Position numbers and translations under genes: made by a program. The notes beneath the pieces were generated by a model that searched no databases, had not been told where the DNA came from, and was given only the letters and a program-made list of their open reading frames with translations. A DNA stretch of 34,556 nt from Deltaproteobacteria bacterium (GTDB lineage Bacteria > Myxococcota_A > UBA796 > JAFGLY01), in the NCBI GenBank assembly GCA_016927815.1, contig JAFGLY010000212.1:1-34556 (forward strand), read 5' to 3'. Below are positions 16,897 through 34,284 of this stretch, one piece after another (position 1 is the first letter of the stretch; each line of letters starts with the position of its first letter).

Positions 16897-19800
16897 ATGA
16901 CGCCCGACCCGACAGCTCCCCGGCGCGCCCTGGTGATCGGGGGTGGGATCGCTGGGATCCAGGCTGCCCTCGATCTCGCGGGGGCACGCGTCCGGGTCAC
17001 GCTGGTGGAGACGTCTCCGTCCCTCGGAGGACGGATGGCCCAGCTGGACAAGACCTTCCCCACCATGGACTGCGCGATATGAATCCTCGGCCCTAAGGCC
17101 ATGGATGCCGGTCGGCATCCCCTCATCGATGTGGTCACGAACGCCCAGGTCGTGGCCTGCAGCGGCGAACCGGGGGCGTTCCGGGTCCGGGTGCGAAAGC
17201 GGCCGCGCTACGTCAGGGAGGATCGATGCGTGGCGTGTGGGCTGTGCGTGGAGGCCTGCCCTCAGGTGGGCGGCAACGAGTTCGACATGGGGATCAAGGC
17301 CCGAAAGGCCATCTACCGGCCGTTCCCCCAATCCGTCCCCGCGACGTACGTGGTGGATCCGGACGCCTGTTTGAACTTCCTCAACTTCCTGACCCCCAAG
17401 CAACGCGATCGGCTCGAGCGGATCCGCGCCATCAAGGCCCGAAAGGACCCGGCGTACCGCACCGACTTCCTGGTGTGCGGGCACTGCGTGTCGGCCTGCG
17501 AGGTCCAGGCCATCGACTTCGACATGCAGCCGGAGGAGACGGACCTCGAGGTGGGGGCCATCCTCGTCGCCACCGGCTTCCAGGAGTTCGACGCCCGTTC
17601 GCTGCGCACCTATGGCTACGGCCGGCTGCCCAACGTGGTGACGAGCCTGGAACTGGAGCGCATGCTCAACGCCTCCGGGGTCACCCAGGGGCACGTGGTC
17701 CGGCCCTCCGACCTCCGTACGCCTCGGCGGATCCTGTTCGTGCAGTGCGTGGGGGCCCGGGGCGAGGGAGGCCGCCCCTACTGCAGCCGCTTCTGCTGCA
17801 TGAACGCGGTGAAGGACTCGCTCCTCATCCGGCAGCACGACCCGGCGGTGGAGGAGGTCACCATCCTCTACACGGACATGCGGGCCTTCGGAAAGGGCTT
17901 CGACGACTTCGTCGAACGCGCCCGCAGCGAAGAGAGCGCGATCTTCCTGCGCGGTCGCCCCGCGACCATCCGCCACGACCCCACGGACGACACCCTCGAG
18001 GTCTTCGTGGAGGACACGCTCGCCCACGAGCCGCGGCGGATCCGCGTGGACCTGGTGGTCCTCTCGGTGGCCGCCGCCCCCAACGAGGGGGCGGTGGAGC
18101 TGGCCCGCATGCTCGGCATCGAGACCGATGCCTACGGGTTCATCGCCCGGCGCGATCCAGCGGTGTCGGCGGTGGAGACCTGCCGGGAGGGCATCTTCGT
18201 GGCCGGCAGCGCGGTGGGACCGCAGGTCATCCCGGACTCCGTGGCCCAGGCCTCGGCGGCCGCCGCACGAGCCGCGCGCTTCCTGTCCGCGGAGCGGGTC
18301 ACCCTCGACCCCGAACCCCCGCCACCGCTCGATCTCTCCGGGCCGCCCCGCATCGGCGTGCTGGTGTGCCACTGTGGCATCAACATCGCCGGCCTCCTCG
18401 ACGTCTCGAACCTGGTCGACCACGCCGCGGCCCAGCCCGGAGTGGTGGCCGCGGTGGACGATGCGTTCGCCTGCTCCTCGACCGGGCAGGAAACGCTCGC
18501 CCGGCTGGTGGCCGAGCATCGGCTCAACCGCGTGGTGGTGGCCGCGTGCACGCCTCGCACCCACGAACCCATCTTCCGCGAGACGCTGGCCCGCCTGGGA
18601 TTCAACCCCTACCTCCTGGAGATGGTCAACATCCGCGACCAGTGCTCCTGGGTCCACGCCCACCACCCGACCGAGGCGCAGGAGAAGGCCCGCGCGCTCC
18701 TCCGCATGGGCATCGCACGAGCCGGTCACCTCGAGCCCCTCGAGGAAGGGCGGGCCCCGGTCACCCGGAGCGCCCTGGTCATCGGGGGGGGCATCGCGGG
18801 CATCCAGGCGGCCACCGACCTCGCCGAGCAGGGCTTTCCGGTCACGCTCGTGGAGCGTTCCTCCGAGTTGGGGGGCCGGCTCGCCGCGCCCCGCCTGTGG
18901 CACCTGTACCCCACCGACCGCCCGGCCGTTGAGGTCCTCGCCCGCAAGGTCGAGCGCCTCCGTGCCAGCGGCGCCCGGATACTCACGGACACCGAGGTCA
19001 CCGGCATCGTCGGCTGCGTCGGATCCTTCCAGGCCACCCTCCAGGGCGCCGTGACCGAGATCCTGCCCGTGGGCGCGATCATCCTGGCCTTCGGTGCGGA
19101 CCTGGCGGATCCGGCCGGCGCGTACGGCCATGGACGGCTGTCCAACGTGATCACCAGCGAGGATCTCGAGCGGGCGTTCTTCGAGGGGGGACCTCGCGTG
19201 GAGGGGAAGCCGCTTCGCAGCGCGGCCTTCGTGCTCTGCGTGGGATCGCGCGATCCCGAGGGGTTCAGCGGCTGCTCTCGATACTGCTGCCCCACCGCCG
19301 TCAAGCAGGCCCTCGCCCTGGCGCGCCAGGGCGTGGACTGCACGGTGTTCTACCGGGACATGCGTACCGTGTCGTCCGGAGCGGAGGAGATGTACCGGGA
19401 GGCCCGCGGCGCGGGCGTGCTCTTCGTGCGGGTCCCCTCCGGCTCGCACGCCCAGGTGCTGGGCGAGACGCGCGCCGAGCGGGTCCGTTGCCGGGACGAG
19501 CTCCTCGACCGGGTCATCGAGGTGCCCGCCGACCTGGTGGTCTTGAGCGTGGGGATGCGCGCCCGCCAGCCCGAGACCGCTCGTTTCCACGACATCCTGA
19601 AGATCACCGTGGGGCTGGACGGGTTCTTCCTGGAGCGCCACCCCGAGCTGGCCCCGGTGGAGACCGCGGTGGAAGGCGTGTTCCTCGCGGGCACCGTACA
19701 GGGTCCCAAGGACATCGTGGACAGCGTGGCCCAGGCCTCGGCCGCCGCGGCCAAGGCCTCGGTGCTGCTCGCCCACGACCAGGTCCGGCTCGACCCGGCC

Positions 19801-20046
19801 GTGTCCGTGGTGGATCCCGATCGGTGTCGCGGGTGCGGCCAGTGCGTCGAGATCTGCCAGTTCCATGCGCCGGCCTTGAAGGAGATCGAGCCGGGGACCT
19901 GGGTGGCCGAGGTGAATCCCTCTCTGTGCAAGGGCTGCGGCACCTGTGCCTCCTGGTGCCCCTCCGGGGCCATCACGGCCCGCCACTTCACGAACCGGCA
20001 GGTGGAGGCCATGGTGGACGCCCTCTTCGCGGAGGCCTCTCCATGA
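16897..20046 (+). CDS. hdrA: Tandem HdrA (HdrA-HdrA fusion) selenoprotein, TGA 17080-17082 read as Sec62
   Basis: A 1049-residue FAD/iron-sulfur protein if TGA 17080-17082 is selenocysteine. Half 1: FAD motif VIGGGIAG (13-20), then PTMDCAI-Sec-ILGPKA, the HdrA site that is usually Cys, then an inserted ferredoxin domain (Cys111/114/117/121) and CGHCVSAC. A region like the HdrA N-terminal domain (from about 485) leads to half 2, with a second FAD motif [10 protein letters not shown] near 629. Half 2 has no Cys or Sec at the equivalent site and no inserted ferredoxin. The tail has two more [4Fe-4S] motifs (Cys977/980/983/987 and Cys1011/1014/1017/1021). HdrA is the bifurcating flavin subunit of soluble Hdr complexes. 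The frame is identical on both sides of the TGA, and a SECIS-like hairpin follows. A standard caller would split it into 61- and 981-residue pieces. It overlaps mvhD by ATGA. Confidence 0.9.
17083..17120 (+). promoter_or_regulatory. SECIS-like element directing Sec insertion in tandem HdrA
   Basis: Directly after the in-frame TGA, GGATGCC (17103-17109) pairs perfectly with GGCATCC (17114-17120) around a GGTC loop (17110-17113). The loop begins 28 bases after the TGA, within the range known for bacterial SECIS elements, and GGTC matches the apical GGUC of the E. coli fdhF element that SelB recognises. The second HdrA has the same structure at the same distance. Confidence 0.85.
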
Positions 20047-20471
20047 GCGCACCCGAAGGCTGGAACCCGCGCATCGTGGTCTTCGCGTGCAACTGGTGCT
20101 CCTACGCGGGCGCCGACACGGCTGGGGTCTCGCGCATCCAGCACCAGCCCCACTTCCGCATGATCCGCGTGATGTGCTCCGGCCGCATCCAGCCGGGGTT
20201 CGTGCTCCGGGCCTTCGAGAAGGGTGCGGACGGCGTACTGGTTTCCGGCTGTCACATCGGCGACTGTCACTACCTGTTCGGCAACGAGCGGGCAGTGGAG
20301 CAGTTCGAGAAGACCCGCGCCGTCACCCGGATCCTGGGTTTGGAGGACGAGCGGCTGCGCCTGGAGTGGATCTCGGCCGCCGAGGGCGCCCGGTTCGCAC
20401 AGGTGATCGACCAGTTCACCGAGCGCGTGCGTGCCCTCGGCCCAAGCCCCCTGGCCAGGGAGGCCCGATGA
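20043..20471 (+). CDS. mvhD: MvhD-like iron-sulfur electron-transfer subunit
   Basis: A 142-residue protein of the MvhD/VhuD/FlpD family, which carries electrons from a hydrogenase or dehydrogenase to HdrA through a [2Fe-2S] cluster. Conserved cysteines are visible: [14 protein letters not shown] (Cys16, Cys19), VMCSGR (Cys45) and SGCHIGDCHY (Cys70, Cys75). All are Cys; selenocysteine, known in some relatives, is absent here. It overlaps the tandem HdrA by ATGA and the next gene by ATGA. No MvhA/MvhG hydrogenase subunit is present in the window, so its electron donor is encoded elsewhere or is the Kor complex (inference). Confidence 0.9.
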   Translation: MSAPEGWNPRIVVFACNWCSYAGADTAGVSRIQHQPHFRMIRVMCSGRIQPGFVLRAFEKGADGVLVSGCHIGDCHYLFGNERAVEQFEKTRAVTRILGLEDERLRLEWISAAEGARFAQVIDQFTERVRALGPSPLAREAR

Positions 20472-21619
20472 CCCGCGCCCACGGCGAGCGCCTCTCCGAC
20501 ATCGCGGCGCGGACCCGCGCCTGGGCCTGCTACGACTGCGGCAAGTGCTCCGCCACCTGCCCGGTCACCCGGATCGGAGGGGCGCTGTCCCCTCGCCGCA
20601 CCGTGCTCTCCACCAACCTCCTGCACGCGGACGTGGCCGTCTACGGAGCGGAGATCGCCTCCTGCCTCACCTGCGGCGCCTGCGATCGTCGATGCCCGGT
20701 CCAGGTGGACTTTACCGGTCTGGTCCGCGCGCTGCGCGAGGTCTCCCACGAGGAGGACGCCCAGCCCGAGTGCCCCCACGGCGGCGCCCTCCAGTCCCTC
20801 ATGCGGATGATGGCACGCGGAACCCTGCAACAGCAGCGGCTCGACTGGCTTGGGCCCGACCTCCACACGGATCCGGCCCACGGGGCCGTGTTCCTCTGGA
20901 CCGGCTGCACCGTCTACTACGACGCCTTCTTCCCCGAGTACGGGATGCGAACGCTGGACGTCACCCGTGCGGCCGTCCGCCTGCTCAACGCGCTCGGACA
21001 GGTTCCCGTGGTCTCCCCGGACGAGGTCTGCTGCGGCCACGACCTCCTCTGGAACGGCGACCGGGCATCGTTCGAGGCGCTCGCCCGGCGTAACGCCGCC
21101 CTCATCCAGGAAAGCGGCGCAGAGGTGGTCGTCGCGCCGTGCGCCGAGTGCGCCCGGACGCTCCGCCTCGACTACGGTCCGTTCCTCGGGTCCAGCCCCC
21201 GGATCCAGCACCTCTCCGAGTACCTCGCGGAGCGGCTCTCCGATCTCCCCCTGGTCCGGGAGACGACCCGGCGGGTCACGTTCCAGGATCCGTGCCGCCT
21301 GGGACGTCACCTGGGCGTGGTGGACGCACCGCGCAGCCTGCTGGCCGCGGTGCCTGGCCTCGAACTCGTGGAGATGGCGCACGCCGGGCTGAACGCCACC
21401 TGCTGCGCGGGTGGCACCTGGTCCGCCTGCGACCGCTACGCCAAGAAGCTCCAGGTCGAACGCCTGAAGGAAGCCAAGGCGACCGGGGCGGAGATCCTGG
21501 TGACCGCCTGCCCCAAGTGCCAGATCCACTTCCGGTGTGCCCAGAAGGACCCCAACCTGGGCCAGGACATCGCCATCGAGATGCAAGATGTCGCGCAGGT
21601 GCTGGCCGACGCCCTCTGA
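20468..21619 (+). CDS. HdrC/HdrB-like fusion (HdrD/GlpC type) iron-sulfur protein
   Basis: A 383-residue soluble protein. The N-terminus is HdrC-like, with two [4Fe-4S] motifs: CYDCGKCSATCP (about residues 18-29) and CLTCGACDRRCP (about 73-84). The C-terminal half has two CCG-type cysteine-rich domains: Cys-X40-CysCys-X35-CysXXCys, then Cys-X35-CysCys-X34-CysXXCys. That spacing is close to HdrB/HdrD, where such motifs bind noncubane [4Fe-4S] clusters that reduce disulfides, but the first gap is slightly long. The natural substrate is unknown. It sits between mvhD and the second HdrA, so it should be an HdrBC equivalent of the first HdrA module. Confidence 0.87.
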   Translation: MTRAHGERLSDIAARTRAWACYDCGKCSATCPVTRIGGALSPRRTVLSTNLLHADVAVYGAEIASCLTCGACDRRCPVQVDFTGLVRALREVSHEEDAQPECPHGGALQSLMRMMARGTLQQQRLDWLGPDLHTDPAHGAVFLWTGCTVYYDAFFPEYGMRTLDVTRAAVRLLNALGQVPVVSPDEVCCGHDLLWNGDRASFEALARRNAALIQESGAEVVVAPCAECARTLRLDYGPFLGSSPRIQHLSEYLAERLSDLPLVRETTRRVTFQDPCRLGRHLGVVDAPRSLLAAVPGLELVEMAHAGLNATCCAGGTWSACDRYAKKLQVERLKEAKATGAEILVTACPKCQIHFRCAQKDPNLGQDIAIEMQDVAQVLADAL

Positions 21620-21634
21620 CCCCTTGGAGGAACC

Positions 21635-24091
21635 ATGAACGAGCCCTCCCGGAACCGCCCGAACGACGAGGAGCTGCGCATCGGCGTCTTCGTCTGCGAT
21701 TGCGGCCTCAACATCGCCGGCGCGGTGGACTGCGAGGCCGTGGCGACGTTCGCGGCCACGCTGCCGGACGTGACCTGCGTGGTCCGCAACAAGTACACCT
21801 GCGCGGACCCGGGCCAGAACGAGATCAAGAACGCCATCCGGCAGCATCACCTCAACCGCGTGGTGGTGGCCTCCTGCACCCCGCGCCAGCACGAGCCCAC
21901 GTTCCGGCAGTGCGTGCTGGATGCGGGGCTGAATCCCTACCTCCTGGAGATGGCCAACCTGAGGGAACACTGCGCCTGGGTCCACCCCCACGACCGGGAG
22001 GCAGCCACGGCCAAGGCCAAGGACCTCGTGGCCGGCGCGGTGGCCAAGGCCCGCTTCCTCCAGCCCCAGGAAGAGATGGTGGTCCCGGTCACCCGCCGGG
22101 CGCTCGTCATCGGCGGCGGGGTGGCCGGGATCGAGGCGGCGCTCGAGCTGGCCGACCAGGGCCACAAGGTCACGCTGGTCGAGAAGCAGCCCTCCATCGG
22201 TGGGATCATGGCCCAGCTCGACAAGACCTACCCCACAATGGACTGCAGCATATGAATCCTCGGGCCCAAGGCCATTGATGCCGGTCGGCATCCCAACATC
22301 GAGCTCCTGACCTTCTCCGAGGTCGACGACGTCTCCGGCTTCGTGGGCAACTTCACGGTGCGGATCCGGAAGAAGGCCCGGTACGTGGACCCCACGGCGT
22401 GCAACGCCTGCGGAGAGTGTGCCAAGGTCTGCCCCCAGGTCCGACCCGACGAGTACCAGATGGGGCTCTCGGCCCGCAAGGCCATCTACATCCCCTTCCC
22501 CCAGGCCGTTCCCTGCTCCTACATCCTCGACATGGAGAGCTGCCTGGGCAACGTTCCCATCGCCTGTGGCAAGTGCGCCGAGGCCTGTGAGCAGAATGCC
22601 ATCAACTACGACGACCGCGACGAAATCGTCACCCGGGAGGTGGGTGCCGTCATCGTGGCGGTCGGGGCCGAGGTCTACGACCCCACCCAGGACGACGAGT
22701 ACGGGTACACGCGCTTCCGGAACGTGATCACCTCGATGGAGTTCGAGCGCCTGATCTGCGCGGGGGGACCCACCTGCGGGGAGTTCGTCCGTCCCAGCGA
22801 CCTCCAGCGGCCGAAGCGCATCGGGTTCATCCAGTGCGTGGGCTCCCGAAACCCGCGGCTGAACCGTCCCTGGTGCTCGAACATCTGCTGCATGAACACG
22901 GTCAAGGACACGCTGCTCCTCGCCGACCACTACCCCGACACCGAAAACGTGGTGTTCTACCAGGACATCCGTTCGTTCGGCAAGGGATTCGAGGACATGT
23001 TCCAGCGGTCCAAGGAGGCGGGCACCCGGTACATCCGGGGCCTGCCGGGCGAGATCGTGGAGGACCCCGCCACCGGCAACCTTCGCGTCACCGTGGAGAA
23101 CACCACGGCAGGTCGCATCGAGCGCTTCGAACTCGACATGGTGGTGCTGTCGGTGGGCGTCGAGCCTCCGAAGGACCTCGCGCGGATCTCCGGTCTCCTC
23201 ACGTTGTCCAAGACCTCCGATGGCTTCTTCATGGAGTCCCACCCCAAGCTCAAGCCGGTGGACGCGCCCACCCGGGGCGTCTTCTTCGCCGGCTTCTGCG
23301 AGTCGCCCAAGGACATCAAGGACTCGGTCTGCCAGGCGGGGGCCGCCGCATCCCGGGCCGGAGCCCTGCTCAACGCCGGCCGGATCCGGATCGAGGCCAT
23401 CACCTCCCACATCGATCCGGCCGCCTGCACGAAGTGCGGGCTGTGTGCGCAGGTCTGTCCCTACGGCGCGATCCGCTGGAAGAAGGGCGAGGTGGCCACG
23501 GTGGTGGAGGCAGCCTGCGCGGGGTGCGGTGCCTGCGGCGCGACGTGCCGCAGCGGCGCCATCACCATGCGTCACTACACCGACGACCAGTTGAACGCGC
23601 AGGTCCGGGCCATCCTGGGGGACCGCCCCCAGGACAAGGTGTGCGTGTTCGCCTGCAACTGGTGCTCCTACGCGGGCGGGGACATGGCCGGCATCTCCCG
23701 CATGGCGTACCCGGCCTCCAACCGCGTGGTCCGTACCCTGTGCTCGGCCCGCGTCTCCGAGGAGATGGTCCTCGAGGCCTTCCGGTGCGGCGCACCCGTG
23801 GTGCTCGTCTCGGGCTGCCACTACGCGGACTGCCACTACATCACCGCCAACCGCCAGACCGTGAAGCGGGTGGATCGGCTGTGGGACCGCCTCGAACGCC
23901 TCGGGATCCGGCCGGAACGCCTGCAGCTCGAGTGGATCAGCGCGGCGGAGGGGCCGAAGTTCGCCGCGGTCATGCGGCGGCTGGAGGACCTGAGACGTAC
24001 GGTCACCGCCGAGGAGATCGCCCACACGCGGGAGGCCCTCCGGCCGAAGCCCGCCGCCCGGATCGCCCGGGCTGCCGCACTCCAGGAGTGA
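21635..24091 (+). CDS. hdrA: HdrA-MvhD fusion selenoprotein, TGA 22253-22255 read as Sec207
   Basis: An 818-residue protein if TGA 22253-22255 is selenocysteine. Order: N-terminal HdrA domain ([14 protein letters not shown], residues about 10-150), FAD motif VIGGGVAG (about 155-165), the active region PTMDCSI-Sec207-ILGPKA, inserted ferredoxin Cys256/259/262/266, CGKCAEAC, C-terminal ferredoxins (Cys598/601/604/608 and 628/631/634/638), then a complete MvhD domain from about 668 ([24 protein letters not shown]). Normal HdrA is about 650 residues; the rest is MvhD. The same frame continues across the TGA. The gene starts at ATG 21635 with TTGGAGG upstream, 15 bases after the previous stop. A standard caller would split it into 206- and 582-residue pieces. 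Predicted cytoplasmic flavin-based bifurcation subunit. Confidence 0.92.
22256..22292 (+). promoter_or_regulatory. SECIS-like element directing Sec insertion in HdrA-MvhD
   Basis: After the TGA, GATGCC (22277-22282) pairs with GGCATC (22287-22292) around GGTC (22283-22286). The loop again starts 28 bases after the TGA. Over the 39 bases following the TGA, this copy differs from the one in the tandem HdrA at three positions only, and the stem-loop core is identical. Confidence 0.85.
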
Positions 24092-29340: not shown

Positions 29341-29419
29341 CTCGATCCATGCCCAGGAACGGTGGGCCTGCCTCGGGCTCGCGGGCGCCGGTCCGTTCCG
29401 TGCGAGGTAAAGGGCCTCC

Positions 29420-31087
29420 ATGCCCGAAGCCCGCGTCCTGGTGGTCCATGCCAACCCGCTGGGCGGGGCCGTGCCGCCCTACGGCGCCGAACGGGTGGCG
29501 CAGGCGCTGGTCCTCGGCGGCTGCGCCGTCCACCTCTCCATCCCGTTCCTGGCTGCTCGTCCCGTCCGGGCGTTCGTGGCGGATCTCGATTGGGATCCCT
29601 GCCTGGTGGCCCTCTCGCTGCGCAACGCGGACGACGCCCTCGTGGTCCGCTCCCCGAGCGGCCGCGGCTCCATCGACACGCGCTCCTGCCTGCCCGCGGT
29701 CCGGCCGCTCGTGGTCGCGGCCCGGGCCCGCGAGGTGCCCGTGCTCGCGGGGGGCACGGGCATCGCGGCCCTCGGCCCGGCGGGGCTCGCGGCCCTCGGC
29801 GTGGACCTCGGGGTTTCGGGCCCGGCCGACGATCTCCTGGTCCGCATGGGCCGGGCGCTCGCGGCGGGTGTGCCCTTTCCGGAGAGCCTCCCGGCCGATC
29901 CCCGGGTGATTGCGGCTCGGGGACATCCTCCCGGCCGGGGCGCGTCCACGTTGCCCGACGACGCAGGGTGCCAGGCACCCGGCCCGACCCCTCGACTCGG
30001 TGAGGGGCTCGCGCTCGCGCGATTCTGGGGCACCCGGCTGCCCGTGTCCACCTCCGCCGGGTGCGACCGGCGCTGCTGGTTCTGCGTGGAAGGCGCCGCT
30101 CTGGCGGGCCGGGTCCGGCCCCGGCCACCCGAGGAGGTGGCGGCCGAGGTCGCACGACTCGTGCGAGGCGGGTTTCCCCGGATCTGGCTCGCGGCCTCCG
30201 AGTTGAACGTTCCGGACGCGGTCCACGCCGTGGCCGTGCTGCGAGCCATCGCGCGGACCGGTGTGCGGGTCGACGTGCGCACGTTTCTGCAGGCGGGCGC
30301 GGTCGACGACGACCTGCTCTCGGCCCTCGAGGATCTGGGCGTGGATCCTGAGGATCTCGGCTTCGAGTTCGGACATCTCGATCCGGATCTCCTGGCCCGG
30401 GGGGCAGGCCCGGCCCCACGCGCCGCCGTGGATCGCGTCGTGGAGACGTGGCTGCGGCGCGGCTACCGGATGCTGGGCGGAACCGTGCTGTTCGGTGGGC
30501 ACCCGGCCGAGACCCGTGCGACCGTGGACCGGGCCCTCGAGGCCGCCCGGGCCATCGACGCCGCCCTGCCCGACGGGTTCGGGCTCGCGTTCAGCGCGGG
30601 CGCCCGGGTCTACCCCGCTGCGCCCCTCGGCCGCTGGGTGGCTTCGCAACCCGAGGAGGCCCGGCCTCACCTCTACGGAAGAGGCCCCGAGGATCTCGCC
30701 CGGCCGGTGGTCTACTGCCGCCCGATGCCGCCTCGGGCGCTCCTCGAGGTCGTACTCGAAGGCCTCCGCCCCCTCCGTGGCCCGGTCACGCCGCTCAACG
30801 CCACCGCCCCCGCCCGGCCGGCCGCGCGGCGGGCGCTCGCGCTGGTGGATCGGTCGGTCCTGGCCGCCCGTTCGGGCCGCACGGGCGCGGCCTTGCGCGC
30901 GCTCTCCGCCGCACTGCGTCACGATCCCGAGCAACGCGACGCGCTGCGTCACCGGGCGCTGCTCCTCGCGAACGTGCGCGGGGATCGCCTGGGCGCCCGC
31001 GCCGCGCTCCTCCGCTTGAGGCGCCTGGTCGACGGCGAGGCCGCCGCCGAGGTGGACGCCGCACTGGCCGTGCTGGGCCCGCCGTGA
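29420..31087 (+). CDS. Radical SAM protein with B12-binding-like N-terminus
   Basis: A 555-residue protein. The N-terminal 180 residues resemble a cobalamin-binding Rossmann domain (VLVVHANPLGG and AGGTGIAALG) but lack a clear DxHxxG cobalamin ligand. The radical SAM cluster motif is AGCDRRCWFC, with Cys215/219/222 (CxxxCxxC). The TIM barrel continues with IWLAASELNVPD and a late FGGHPAET strand; the last 100 residues are TPR-like helices (RTGAALRALSAALRHDPEQ). The reaction is unknown; family members perform methyl transfer, ring formation or thiol insertion. It is coupled to the DUF434 gene by a four-base GTGA overlap, so the two work together. Confidence 0.85.
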   Translation: MPEARVLVVHANPLGGAVPPYGAERVAQALVLGGCAVHLSIPFLAARPVRAFVADLDWDPCLVALSLRNADDALVVRSPSGRGSIDTRSCLPAVRPLVVAARAREVPVLAGGTGIAALGPAGLAALGVDLGVSGPADDLLVRMGRALAAGVPFPESLPADPRVIAARGHPPGRGASTLPDDAGCQAPGPTPRLGEGLALARFWGTRLPVSTSAGCDRRCWFCVEGAALAGRVRPRPPEEVAAEVARLVRGGFPRIWLAASELNVPDAVHAVAVLRAIARTGVRVDVRTFLQAGAVDDDLLSALEDLGVDPEDLGFEFGHLDPDLLARGAGPAPRAAVDRVVETWLRRGYRMLGGTVLFGGHPAETRATVDRALEAARAIDAALPDGFGLAFSAGARVYPAAPLGRWVASQPEEARPHLYGRGPEDLARPVVYCRPMPPRALLEVVLEGLRPLRGPVTPLNATAPARPAARRALALVDRSVLAARSGRTGAALRALSAALRHDPEQRDALRHRALLLANVRGDRLGARAALLRLRRLVDGEAAAEVDAALAVLGPP

Positions 31088-31776
31088 CGCCCGGCACGCC
31101 CGATCGCGGGGCCCACCCGGGGGATGCCGAGCTGCTGGGTCCGGCCGCCCTGCCCCGGCTCCGGGAGGCCTCGGCCGACCTCGCCTGGCTCCTGGGACGT
31201 GGCTACGCCGAGACCGCAGCCCTGGCCCTGGTGGGGGATCGCTTCCAGCTCCCGGCGCGCGCCCGGACGGCCGTCTTGCGGGGCACGTGCACGGCAGAGC
31301 ACGCCCGATCGCGGCGCGAGCGCCGGGTTTCGATCCCGAGACGGCAGGTGGTCGTGGACGGCTTCAACGTGCTCGTCACGGTGGAGTCGGCCCTCGCCGG
31401 TGCCCCCCTGGTGCGCGGCACGGACGGCCTCCTGCGCGACCTGGCCGGCGTCCACGGCGCCTGGCGGAGCATGGCCTGGACCGAACGCGCCCTCGACCGG
31501 CTCGCCGAGGTCCTCGCGCCTGCCGCGGCGGTACGCTGGCTCCTGGACCGGCCGGTCGCCCACAGCGGACGCCTGGCCTCCCGCCTGAGAGACCGGGGAT
31601 TCGATGCCGAGACCGTCTGGGACGTGGATGCCACCCTGGCGGCCACATGCGCCGAGGGGACCTGGGTGGGCGCCACGGCCGATGGTCCGCTCCTGGGCCG
31701 CCTGCCCGCGGCCGTGGACCTCGTGGGCCCCGTCGTGGTCCGCATCCCCGATGCCTGGATCGTGGACCTCGGGTGA
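31084..31776 (+). CDS. DUF434/DUF5616 protein, unknown function
   Basis: A 230-residue protein. N-terminus: LREASADLAWLLGRGY and LALVGDRFQLPARARTA, typical of DUF434. The second half has VVDGFNVLVTVESALAG, typical of DUF5616. These two domains usually occur together, often in archaea. There is no assigned activity; the Asp residues in VVDGFN and in WDVDATL could bind metal, as in PIN-like nucleases (inference). It starts with GTG 31084 inside the radical SAM stop codon, so the two are co-translated. Confidence 0.8.
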   Translation: MTPGTPDRGAHPGDAELLGPAALPRLREASADLAWLLGRGYAETAALALVGDRFQLPARARTAVLRGTCTAEHARSRRERRVSIPRRQVVVDGFNVLVTVESALAGAPLVRGTDGLLRDLAGVHGAWRSMAWTERALDRLAEVLAPAAAVRWLLDRPVAHSGRLASRLRDRGFDAETVWDVDATLAATCAEGTWVGATADGPLLGRLPAAVDLVGPVVVRIPDAWIVDLG

Positions 31777-32532: not shown

Positions 32533-34284
32533 CTAGGGAGGGGCGCCCGGAAGACGCGTGGGAGCTTCGCACCTCAGCGCGTCCAGCGCTCGGTTCCATC
32601 GGTCGATGCGGGCGATCTCGTCCTCGACGGCCCGCGCTCCCTCGTCGTGGAGTCGCCGGGCACGGGCGAGGGCCTCCTCTCCGGACGCCCGCACACCTTC
32701 GAGCAGGTCGCGGACCCGGCGTAGGACCCGGCGGTGGCTCTCGCGCACGCGGTCGTCGAAGTCGTGCTGGATGCGGCTGGCGTTGGAGCGGATCAATCGC
32801 TCCAGGTAGGTGCCCACCTTGCGCTCGATGGCGGTGAGCGTGGCCTCCCGGTCGCGCAGGCAGGCGAGGATCCAGCCCCAGGGGCCCTGGCCGGTGAGGG
32901 TCATGATGCGCGTGTAGAAGAGCCCGCTCGGGACGCGGAACCCGGTCTCGGGCTCCAGTACGCGGGGCAGGCCGGCGAGGGGGGCGGTCCCCTCCGATGC
33001 GAGCCGTTCGAGAAAGCCGGCGGCGATGGCGGTGAACCGGTTCGTCGCCTGGAGGTAGAGGTCCTCGCACAGCGGTCGGACCTCGGCCAGCCAGGCGTCC
33101 AGCCATCGCTCGGCGATCTCCCGGGCCACCTGTTCGGCGGCGGGATGGAGGCAACGGGCGGGGAGCCCGGCCCGCTCGGGCGAGCGGAGCGCGCGGGCCA
33201 ACGCTTCCTTCGCGGCCGAGACGGCCTGTTCGAGGAACGCCTCCTTCTGGCGCTCGAACGCACGGGCGAGTCGCCGCTGCTCGGCCGCGAAGAGGGGTTC
33301 GAGGTCGCCCGTGGCGGTGACGGCGTCCTCCACGCACCGGGCGAGCGCAGCCACCCGGGCCTCGGTTTCGTGGAGGGGGCGCAAGAGCGCGTCCCGCCGG
33401 GCGGCGAGATCCGCGCCGAGCGTCGAGGCGAGGCGATGGCGGCCCCGCACAGAGGCGCTCAGCACGAGCGCACGGCCCGAGCTCAGGGCCAGGTCCGAGA
33501 GCGCGGCCTCCAGCGCGGGCCAGTCGCGCTCGGGGCCGGTGCCGGCCTGGTGCTCGGTCGCGCTCACGAGGAGCACGGGCCCCGGATCGCGCCCGAGCCG
33601 TCGGCCGAGCACGTCCCGGGCGAAGGCAGCCGCCTCGCGGGCCTCCGGCTCGGGCAGCCGGTCGGCCTTGTTGCAGGCCAAAATCAGGGAACCGTCCGCC
33701 TGTCGTGCGACCTCGGCCACGAGGTCCGCCTCCTCGGCCGTGAGGGGCGGATCGGCCCCCAGCACGACGAGGGCAGCGTCCACCTGGGGCACGAACTTGC
33801 GGGTCGTGGCCGTGTTGCCGGCGAAGACCGAGCCGACGCCCGGGGTGTCCACGAGGCAGAGCCCCGAGGCGAGGAGCGGATGGGGCAGGCGGATCTCCAC
33901 GCCCGCCACTCCCTTCACGTTCTCGGGGTTCTTGGCCTCGGTGACCCAGTCGGCGAGAGAGCCCGGATCGACCTCGGCCACCTCGCCCGAGGCAAAGCGT
34001 ACCCGGGCATCGCGGGCCGGCCCGTACCGGACCACCGTCACGGCCGCGGTGACCGGGACCACACCCACGGGAAGGAGGGGCTCGCCGACCAGCGCGTTCA
34101 CGAGGCTGGACTTGCCCCGCTTGAACTGGCCGACGCAGGCCACGAAGAAGCGGCCGTCCCCGACGCGGTCCGCGAGCGACCGCACCTCCGCGGCGACCCG
34201 CGGCGAGCCCGCCTCGTCCGCGAGGCGGGCCAGGGCGTCGAGCGTGTCCTGGGGAACGAGGTCGGGGTTGCAGGGCTCCTGCAC
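32533..34284 (-). CDS. Dynamin-like large GTPase
   Basis: A 583-residue bacterial dynamin-like protein. G1 GQFKRGKSS (52-60), G2 region VVPVTAAVT (75-83), G3 DTPGVGS (about 145) and G4 NKAD (about 204) are all present. The rest is mostly long Ala/Arg/Glu helices forming the stalk, with one less helical stretch (GLFYTRIMTLTGQGPWGW) that could be a membrane paddle. Such proteins remodel or protect membranes; the exact role is unknown. Start GTG 34284 follows GCGGAG. A short hairpin CCCTCC-TAG-GGAGGG covers the stop (32528-32542). Usually two such genes lie side by side; only one is seen here. Confidence 0.9.
   Translation of the reverse strand: MQEPCNPDLVPQDTLDALARLADEAGSPRVAAEVRSLADRVGDGRFFVACVGQFKRGKSSLVNALVGEPLLPVGVVPVTAAVTVVRYGPARDARVRFASGEVAEVDPGSLADWVTEAKNPENVKGVAGVEIRLPHPLLASGLCLVDTPGVGSVFAGNTATTRKFVPQVDAALVVLGADPPLTAEEADLVAEVARQADGSLILACNKADRLPEPEAREAAAFARDVLGRRLGRDPGPVLLVSATEHQAGTGPERDWPALEAALSDLALSSGRALVLSASVRGRHRLASTLGADLAARRDALLRPLHETEARVAALARCVEDAVTATGDLEPLFAAEQRRLARAFERQKEAFLEQAVSAAKEALARALRSPERAGLPARCLHPAAEQVAREIAERWLDAWLAEVRPLCEDLYLQATNRFTAIAAGFLERLASEGTAPLAGLPRVLEPETGFRVPSGLFYTRIMTLTGQGPWGWILACLRDREATLTAIERKVGTYLERLIRSNASRIQHDFDDRVRESHRRVLRRVRDLLEGVRASGEEALARARRLHDEGARAVEDEIARIDRWNRALDALRCEAPTRLPGAPP

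Follow-up and report, generated by a model that had tools for sequence, protein, structure and literature searches.

The window analysed here is one complete contig of 34,556 bases (JAFGLY010000212.1) from the 4-Mb draft genome, in 216 contigs, of a Deltaproteobacteria bacterium. At 29420–31776 on its plus strand, on which all features of the pair lie, two overlapping genes encode a radical S-adenosylmethionine (SAM) protein and a DUF434/DUF5616 protein. A first-pass annotation, made from the sequence alone, had taken this coupling as a sign of a joint modification pathway. We favor another reading, to which we give a probability of roughly 0.6: two independently conserved genes form a private overlapping pair by chance, and a TsrM-type methylase and a PIN/FEN-like nuclease act separately.

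Both frames are open and coding, and the bounds are exact for the gene pair. The first gene (29420..31087) encodes a protein of 555 amino acids, assigned as TsrM-like and cobalamin-type from a PF04055 match and from the comparison of its family profile and model with TsrM; it starts with ATG and has GAGG upstream at 29404–29407. The second gene (31084..31776) encodes 230 amino acids, a predicted PIN/FEN-like nuclease according to PF04256, PF18481 and a structure model. Its GTG start at 31084–31086 overlaps the TGA of the radical SAM gene at 31085–31087, and the stop/start overlap described at first pass is present in the sequence as the four bases GTGA (31084..31087). The GTG start is credible because the RG....D motif found at the N terminus of relatives starts at residue 8. 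The two family names given at first pass also held, with 46.4 bits for PF04055 (cut-off 29.5), 63.8 for PF04256 (cut-off 27) and 94.7 for PF18481 (cut-off 27.6). Upstream on the minus strand lies a sigma-54 response regulator, with a minus-strand frame, histidine kinase-like by eye, between it and the radical SAM gene; downstream, also on the minus strand, are a haem-binding protein and a dynamin-type protein. Since the genes on both sides are on the opposite strand, the pair is its own same-strand unit.

Kinship of the radical SAM protein with TsrM

The radical SAM family was aligned in 16 rows (alignment A1), the 15 orthologues being 46–54% identical to the window protein, and an AlphaFold2 model built on A1 had a mean predicted local distance difference test score (pLDDT) of 86.2 and a predicted template modeling score (pTM) of 0.84. 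The N terminus is unusually conserved around NP and PYG.ER.A. Residues ~1–150 (29420..29869) form a predicted Rossmann-like, cobalamin-type domain in the model and in the alignment with TsrM. The B12-like domain claimed at first pass is thus borne out by family profile and predicted structure, which align this part with TsrM, although Pfam finds none: PF02310 (B12-binding) gave no match in the protein at E up to 1, and the protein is absent among the PF02310 matches of its own genome. The radical SAM core covers residues ~205–420 (30032..30679; PF04055 over residues 210–369, and model), including the CX3CX2C cluster motif Cys215/Cys219/Cys222 (30062..30085), which is invariant in A1. Two features of Class 1 cobalamin-dependent radical SAM enzymes are therefore found, the CX3CX2C core and an N-terminal Rossmann domain, the model being aligned from residue 3. 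Residues ~467–552 (30818..31075) form a helical tail like tetratricopeptide repeats (TPR), placed by model helices and by the A1 profile against PDB TPR chains (residues ~467–545). The best whole-sequence E of 2.4e-15 there adds up many repeats of a designed TPR, no single stretch of which is significant, and in the single sequence the Pfam TPR models stay below cut-off. Recruitment of a protein or carrier is a possible role of this tail.

TsrM came first by fold and by sequence profile. It was the top Foldseek match of the model (E 2.8e-20), and by VIA it reached Z 26.2 with a root-mean-square deviation (rmsd) of 4.0 over 447 aligned residues, followed by MgmA (Z 23.8) and AprD4 (Z 23.0). The A1 profile searched against all PDB sequences returned TsrM first, at E 4.1e-29 over profile positions 4–424, with MgmA as the next radical SAM entry at 3.3e-10; the single window sequence finds TsrM at E 1.3e-11. 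A tree of 24 rows (eight from A1, locus L138, TsrM and 14 others, drawn without BzaD, HpnR or PhpK references) joins the family to TsrM at 99/97 support.

Residues known from TsrM were then located, with Arg69, Glu273 and Gln310 numbered by counting from the printed alignment. The codon for Arg68 (29621..29623), right after predicted strand 62–67, aligns with TsrM Arg69, and that for Glu261 (30200..30202) aligns with Glu273. Arginine occupies its column in 15 of 16 A1 rows and in L138. Most own-genome rows were left unaligned here by the profile, and no count is given for them. Glutamate is present in all 16 A1 rows and L138. The own genome and relatives supplied 16 further radical SAM rows with full alignment around this column, and Glu stands there in none of them; L228 has Asp and L211 has Glu one position earlier. 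The Gln at the Gln310 position is invariant in the family and absent from all 13 other aligned rows, eight of which have Arg. Phe replaces TsrM Tyr308 in 15 of 16 family rows, which suggests another substrate for these predicted proteins. The residue comparison used 20 of the 30 own-genome PF02310 regions. As a separate observation, that 4-Mb genome has 30 PF02310 matches over cut-off, and a radical SAM cluster motif is present in most of the 20 that were fetched.

In excerpts of two papers, TsrM is the notable exception among radical SAM enzymes in that it does not generate a 5'-deoxyadenosyl radical (PMC13331322, PMC8992657). Its Arg69 sits in the loop after strand 3, according to an excerpt of PMC13331322, and keeps ligands off the cobalt, according to an excerpt of PMC8992657; the same excerpt reports that an Arg69 to Lys change loses Trp methylation and retains cobalamin methylation, and that Glu273 binds the unique iron. 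The exceptional standing of TsrM among cobalamin-dependent radical SAM enzymes (PMC13331322, in excerpt) itself speaks for an alternative that we regard as possible and do not prefer, namely that the window protein resembles TsrM in fold only, being either a cobalamin-dependent methylase of the ordinary radical (5'-deoxyadenosyl) type or some non-methylase, for example a dehydratase or cyclase. MgmA and AprD4 are near by fold, Arg68 is present in related families, and the top NCBIfam score of the window protein belongs, marginally, to the ladderane model (60.9 versus 58.8 bits for the TsrM model). Set against this are the first place of TsrM in the sequence profile search, with the E values given above, and the Glu and Gln columns, which are common to the family and TsrM and to no other aligned row.

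Several further points weigh against a TsrM-type reading. One family row, L045, has Pro in the Arg column. The branches of the tree are long (1.47 for TsrM, 1.32 for the family stem), TsrM is the sole characterized enzyme and a single sequence in it, and four rows, including that of the window protein, carry composition flags. The SxRNxD motif around the arginine is also found in L222, L021, L142 and L143, and SxRN in L020, and for these five proteins the highest scores come from ladderane-type or BzaD models. In the literature excerpted, a Glu at the Glu273 position is a common feature among radical SAM enzymes (PMC8992657), and the TsrM variant E273A is still without SAM cleavage (PMC9692996), so Glu273 is not the deciding residue. 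It was also noted that L142, L143, L020, L021 and L222, with the SxRN motif and without the TsrM-type Glu, could separate the roles of both residues.

Judged by sequence and predicted structure, the family is an uncharacterized TsrM-related variant of known enzymes, and we read the window protein as a putative TsrM-type methylase. Beyond the kinship itself, the cysteines, Arg68 and Glu261, the mechanism is an analogy with TsrM. Cobalamin would be bound base-off in the N-terminal Rossmann domain, where Arg68 would fill the space under the cobalt, leave the lower face empty and destabilize methylcobalamin. Cob(I)alamin would take a methyl group from SAM to give methylcobalamin, and the methyl would then be passed heterolytically, by a polar, non-radical route, to a nucleophilic and probably sp2 carbon of a substrate. 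A bolder and less likely reading is that the family represents a second kind of non-radical TsrM-type cobalamin methylase, in one order of Myxococcota-like bacteria, with a target other than free tryptophan, perhaps a protein-bound one delivered by the TPR-like tail. A family that groups with TsrM, has the key Arg and Glu and seemingly has another substrate pocket would be useful for finding out which residues set the choice between a polar and a radical transfer of the methyl group. A literature search limited to paper listings and a few excerpts found no paper on this radical SAM family. The radical SAM protein is a better find than the pairing.

A predicted nuclease fold in the DUF434/DUF5616 protein

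The second protein consists of a helical DUF434 domain (31156..31323, Pfam) and a DUF5616 domain (31339..31722). The latter was delimited with Pfam and with an alignment of 29 DUF434/DUF5616 rows, the window protein included (A2), and contains the invariant residues Asp92, Glu101, Asp114, Asp119, Asp155, Asp182 and Asp200 among 18 invariant columns. AlphaFold2 run on 29 homologues gave a model with pLDDT 95.0 and pTM 0.91. When the 1000 best Foldseek matches to this model were compared by VIA-align, ranks 1–20 of the 50 rows given were titled FEN1, Exo1, ExoIX, T5 exonuclease, Pol I or Rae1, with Z from 9.5 to 6.4 and a best rmsd of 3.0 over 124 aligned residues; the listed rows mostly span residues 70–223. 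In the model, Asp92 and Asp155 end predicted strands 88–92 and 149–155, and Asp182 and Asp200 come after predicted strands 174–178 and 194–197. Acids placed in this way would fit the metal site of PIN-like proteins. On fold and invariant residues, the DUF5616 protein is probably a nuclease.

The case is weakened on several sides. A best VIA Z of 7 to 8 is typical for models without a clear match, and Foldseek returned nothing at E 0.001 or below for this model. Profile alignment with hhalign gave DUF5616 probabilities of 0.05 and 0.22% against NYN and 5'-3' exonuclease families, where the reversed control gave 0.71 and 0.29%, with 28 of 30 NYN loci (one dropped for stop codons) and 25 of 25 exonuclease loci as input. 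Kinship of DUF5616 at the sequence level with either NYN or 5'-3' exonuclease was accordingly set aside, there being no signal. The DUF434 part against the cobalamin domain, run as a control, reached 10.8% over 16 columns, which we take as chance. NYN_YacP was absent from 39 genomes, and a search of PDB sequences with the DUF434 profile gave none at E up to 1.

These weaknesses leave some room, in our view a limited amount, for DUF5616 to be a non-nuclease, acid-rich Rossmann-like fold, for example phosphatase-like or nucleotide-binding. Lower ranks of the VIA list (Z 5.0 to 6.3) include chains of the universal-stress type, argininosuccinate synthase and chains of the HAD type, the weak best Foldseek rows are eIF2B-like (E 0.026), and the missing sequence link to PIN families would fit as well. 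This idea has to contend with FEN and related nucleases holding ranks 1–20, with Z up to 9.5, and with the acids after beta strands, which fit a metal-ion site.

As a nuclease, the protein would be a metal-dependent, PIN/FEN-like enzyme with a helical DUF434 domain and a catalytic DUF5616 domain, and might cut RNA or structured DNA with a divalent metal, perhaps as an RNase, apart from the methylase. If true, this would assign a function to a family that is widespread and has no name so far; our literature search for DUF434 (as a whole word), DUF5616 and COG2454 found no paper.

Distribution and neighbors of the two genes

The pairing was surveyed in this phylum, in sets of 58 and 377 genomes that each include the own genome, and in three plasmid records. 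In the smaller set, radical SAM orthologues (E 3.0e-104 or better) occur in 18 genomes, with 27 further genomes having weaker matches only (E up to 0.001), and DUF434 occurs in 10. Both genes are present in three genomes, where 3.1 are expected by chance (Fisher p = 1). In the larger set, the radical SAM family (E up to 1e-30) was found in 22 genomes, of which 20 belong to one order (one match being a fragment of 130 positions); besides the two distant matches (G116 and G290), the orthologues are confined to that order in the sample. DUF434 was found in 58 genomes of this set, with 57 scoring over the family cut-off, and both genes again in three, the own genome included (Fisher p = 1). In the other two, G023 and G033, the genes lie on different contigs and the upstream neighbors differ or none is in reach; the DUF434 gene of G033 runs into the contig end. 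A contig scan for the radical SAM protein matched at least 66 loci, at least eight of them family members (two being pieces of one genome) and at least 58 weak, at E 1e-8 or worse.

Outside the own genome, then, co-occurrence exists at the level of genomes, at chance, and adjacency was seen in no relative examined. Measured by the refuting condition named at first pass, absence of co-occurrence outside this genome, the outcome goes mostly against a joint pathway. A profile search found no DUF434 in 29 loci around radical SAM orthologues (best E 0.63). These loci comprise 17 regions from 17 genomes, eight named contigs and four short search loci, 312,689 bases in total, with several places present twice and some fragments. 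In the reverse direction, the neighborhood survey of DUF434 proposed at first pass gave no relative of the radical SAM protein beside the gene in 40 loci from 40 of 58 genomes, up to 8.3 kb each (profile, best E 0.11). With tblastn, 46 queries (16 family rows, TsrM and 29 frames from fetched cobalamin-type regions) gave nothing at 1e-4 on the DUF434 loci besides the window, a search that very different radical SAM kinds could escape. Weak best rows were taken as noise, at E 0.11, 0.15 and 0.85 for the radical SAM profile, 0.3 for its core and 0.63 for the DUF434 profile. The DUF434 family is also found on plasmids of Bacteroidota and Spirochaetota, and no radical SAM gene lies within 4 kb of three such plasmid genes (Hymenobacter, Flammeovirga and Treponema) in the PLSDB annotation, which is incomplete. 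The description of DUF434 as mostly archaeal survives in part: the control matches are archaeal, in three of 14 genomes, yet this bacterial phylum has the family in 58 of 377 genomes, and it is also present on bacterial plasmids.

The neighbors of DUF434 vary from locus to locus. The same four-base overlap occurs in two of the 40 loci, with an FMN (flavin mononucleotide) reductase in L172 and a class I/II aminotransferase in L205. DUF434 follows closely behind formiminotransferase-cyclodeaminase (FTCD) in L189 and L200 (23 and 46 bases; genomes G014 and G033), behind an ATP-grasp protein in L191 and behind a protein matching TPR and, weakly, methyltransferase models in L197; in L180 and L181 (genus g166) it precedes, within 12 and 36 bases, a tRNA-U5-methyltransferase-like gene whose TRAM match is over cut-off in L181 alone. 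Because the partners are so varied, any single coupling carries little information. A simple filter places, in 13 of the 40 loci, the end of a same-strand gene no more than 80 bases upstream of DUF434; nine of these neighbors and that of L169 were scanned, and seven have a Pfam match, three have none and none is a radical SAM protein.

No conserved DUF434 partner was found in the phylum, and recurring blocks are confined to small groups: one block in six genomes of genus g50 (L178, L179, L182, L183, L190 and L192), others in two genomes each (L174/L176, L177/L185, L180/L181 and L189/L200), and the aminotransferase in L169 and L205. A loose cluster, c1, is shared by 11 of 41 stretches, its distance from DUF434 varying. 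The radical SAM gene has equally mixed neighbors, among them hydrolases, asparaginase, an Era-like GTPase, a kinase and alanyl-tRNA synthetase (10 scanned, eight with Pfam matches), and conserved partners occur among close relatives only, in up to four of 18 stretches per cluster, own overlapping frames excepted. Genes in these neighborhoods were called by simple open reading frames with a GC-position filter, so small or shifted genes may be missed. The filter missed the DUF434 gene in 12 of the 40 loci and in the window; tblastn recovered 11, and in the last of the 12, L208, the DUF434-like frame belongs to cluster c0.

On co-occurrence and neighborhoods, surveyed in this phylum and in three plasmid records, a joint pathway deduced from the overlap was set aside as unsupported. 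That the two proteins form a true modification system, in which the radical SAM enzyme would modify RNA or protein and the DUF434/DUF5616 nuclease would process or check the product, is improbable: a four-base overlap in a same-strand two-gene unit with flanking genes on the opposite strand speaks for it, and a nuclease beside a modifying enzyme is thinkable, but no second genome surveyed has the pair, genome-level co-occurrence is at chance, and DUF434 overlaps as tightly with the FMN reductase of L172 and the aminotransferase of L205.

The reading of a chance pairing has its own difficulties. Co-translation is what an overlap of four bases normally means, and both genes could conceivably share a role in their own lineage alone; the single other member available from the own taxonomic family (f1), G001, has neither gene. 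Weighing these with the survey, the pairing looks like a local arrangement, unimportant in itself.

Elsewhere in the window, a match to the fluoride riboswitch (RF01734; 34344–34417, minus strand) scores 34.1 bits against a gathering score of 34 and ends 59 bases ahead of the start of the dynamin-family GTPase gene (32533–34284, minus strand). Among 57 genomes searched, it is over cut-off in the own genome only, with G037 reaching 29.8 bits, and the stretch folds no better than shuffles (z -0.90), which makes it a single, borderline case. At 17101–24091 on the plus strand lies a block encoding electron-transfer proteins of the iron-sulphur and flavin kinds, including a pyridine nucleotide-disulphide oxidoreductase with ferredoxin domains, a CCG cysteine-rich domain protein and an FlpD/ferredoxin protein, which we take to resemble heterodisulfide-reductase-type modules.

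Comparison with known systems

Within its own family, the DUF434/DUF5616 protein of the window has PVAHSG for the usual PVSNSG and AWRSMAW for SYR.V, and is otherwise ordinary. It may be like the PIN-like nucleases FEN1, ExoIX and Rae1 (YacP) in predicted fold and in its invariant acids near strand ends. It is unlike them in showing no detectable similarity to NYN or 5'-3' exonuclease alignments, and the window protein adds the N-terminal helical DUF434 domain.

For the radical SAM protein, the best or near-best NCBIfam scores come from TIGR04072 (ladderane-type lipid biosynthesis B12-binding/radical SAM) and TIGR04385 (BzaD). Its 60.9 bits lie below the TIGR04072 cut-off of 360, as do the 111.9 bits that are the best of three further family rows, and L021 is just over that cut-off. 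The five proteins nearer to these two models (L020, L021, L142, L143 and L222) share SxRN(xD) with the window protein and are without the Glu and Gln of its family.

The nearest known system is TsrM (PDB 6wte/6wtf; TIGR04428), a tryptophan 2-C-methyltransferase. The window protein differs from it in sequence, with 20–24% identity in structure comparisons, and its score of 58.8 bits, where TIGR04428 has a cut-off of 500, places it outside that equivalog. In the model the two align over residues 3–515, nearly the whole chain, and they share CX3CX2C, the Arg at Arg69, the Glu at Glu273 and the Gln at Gln310.

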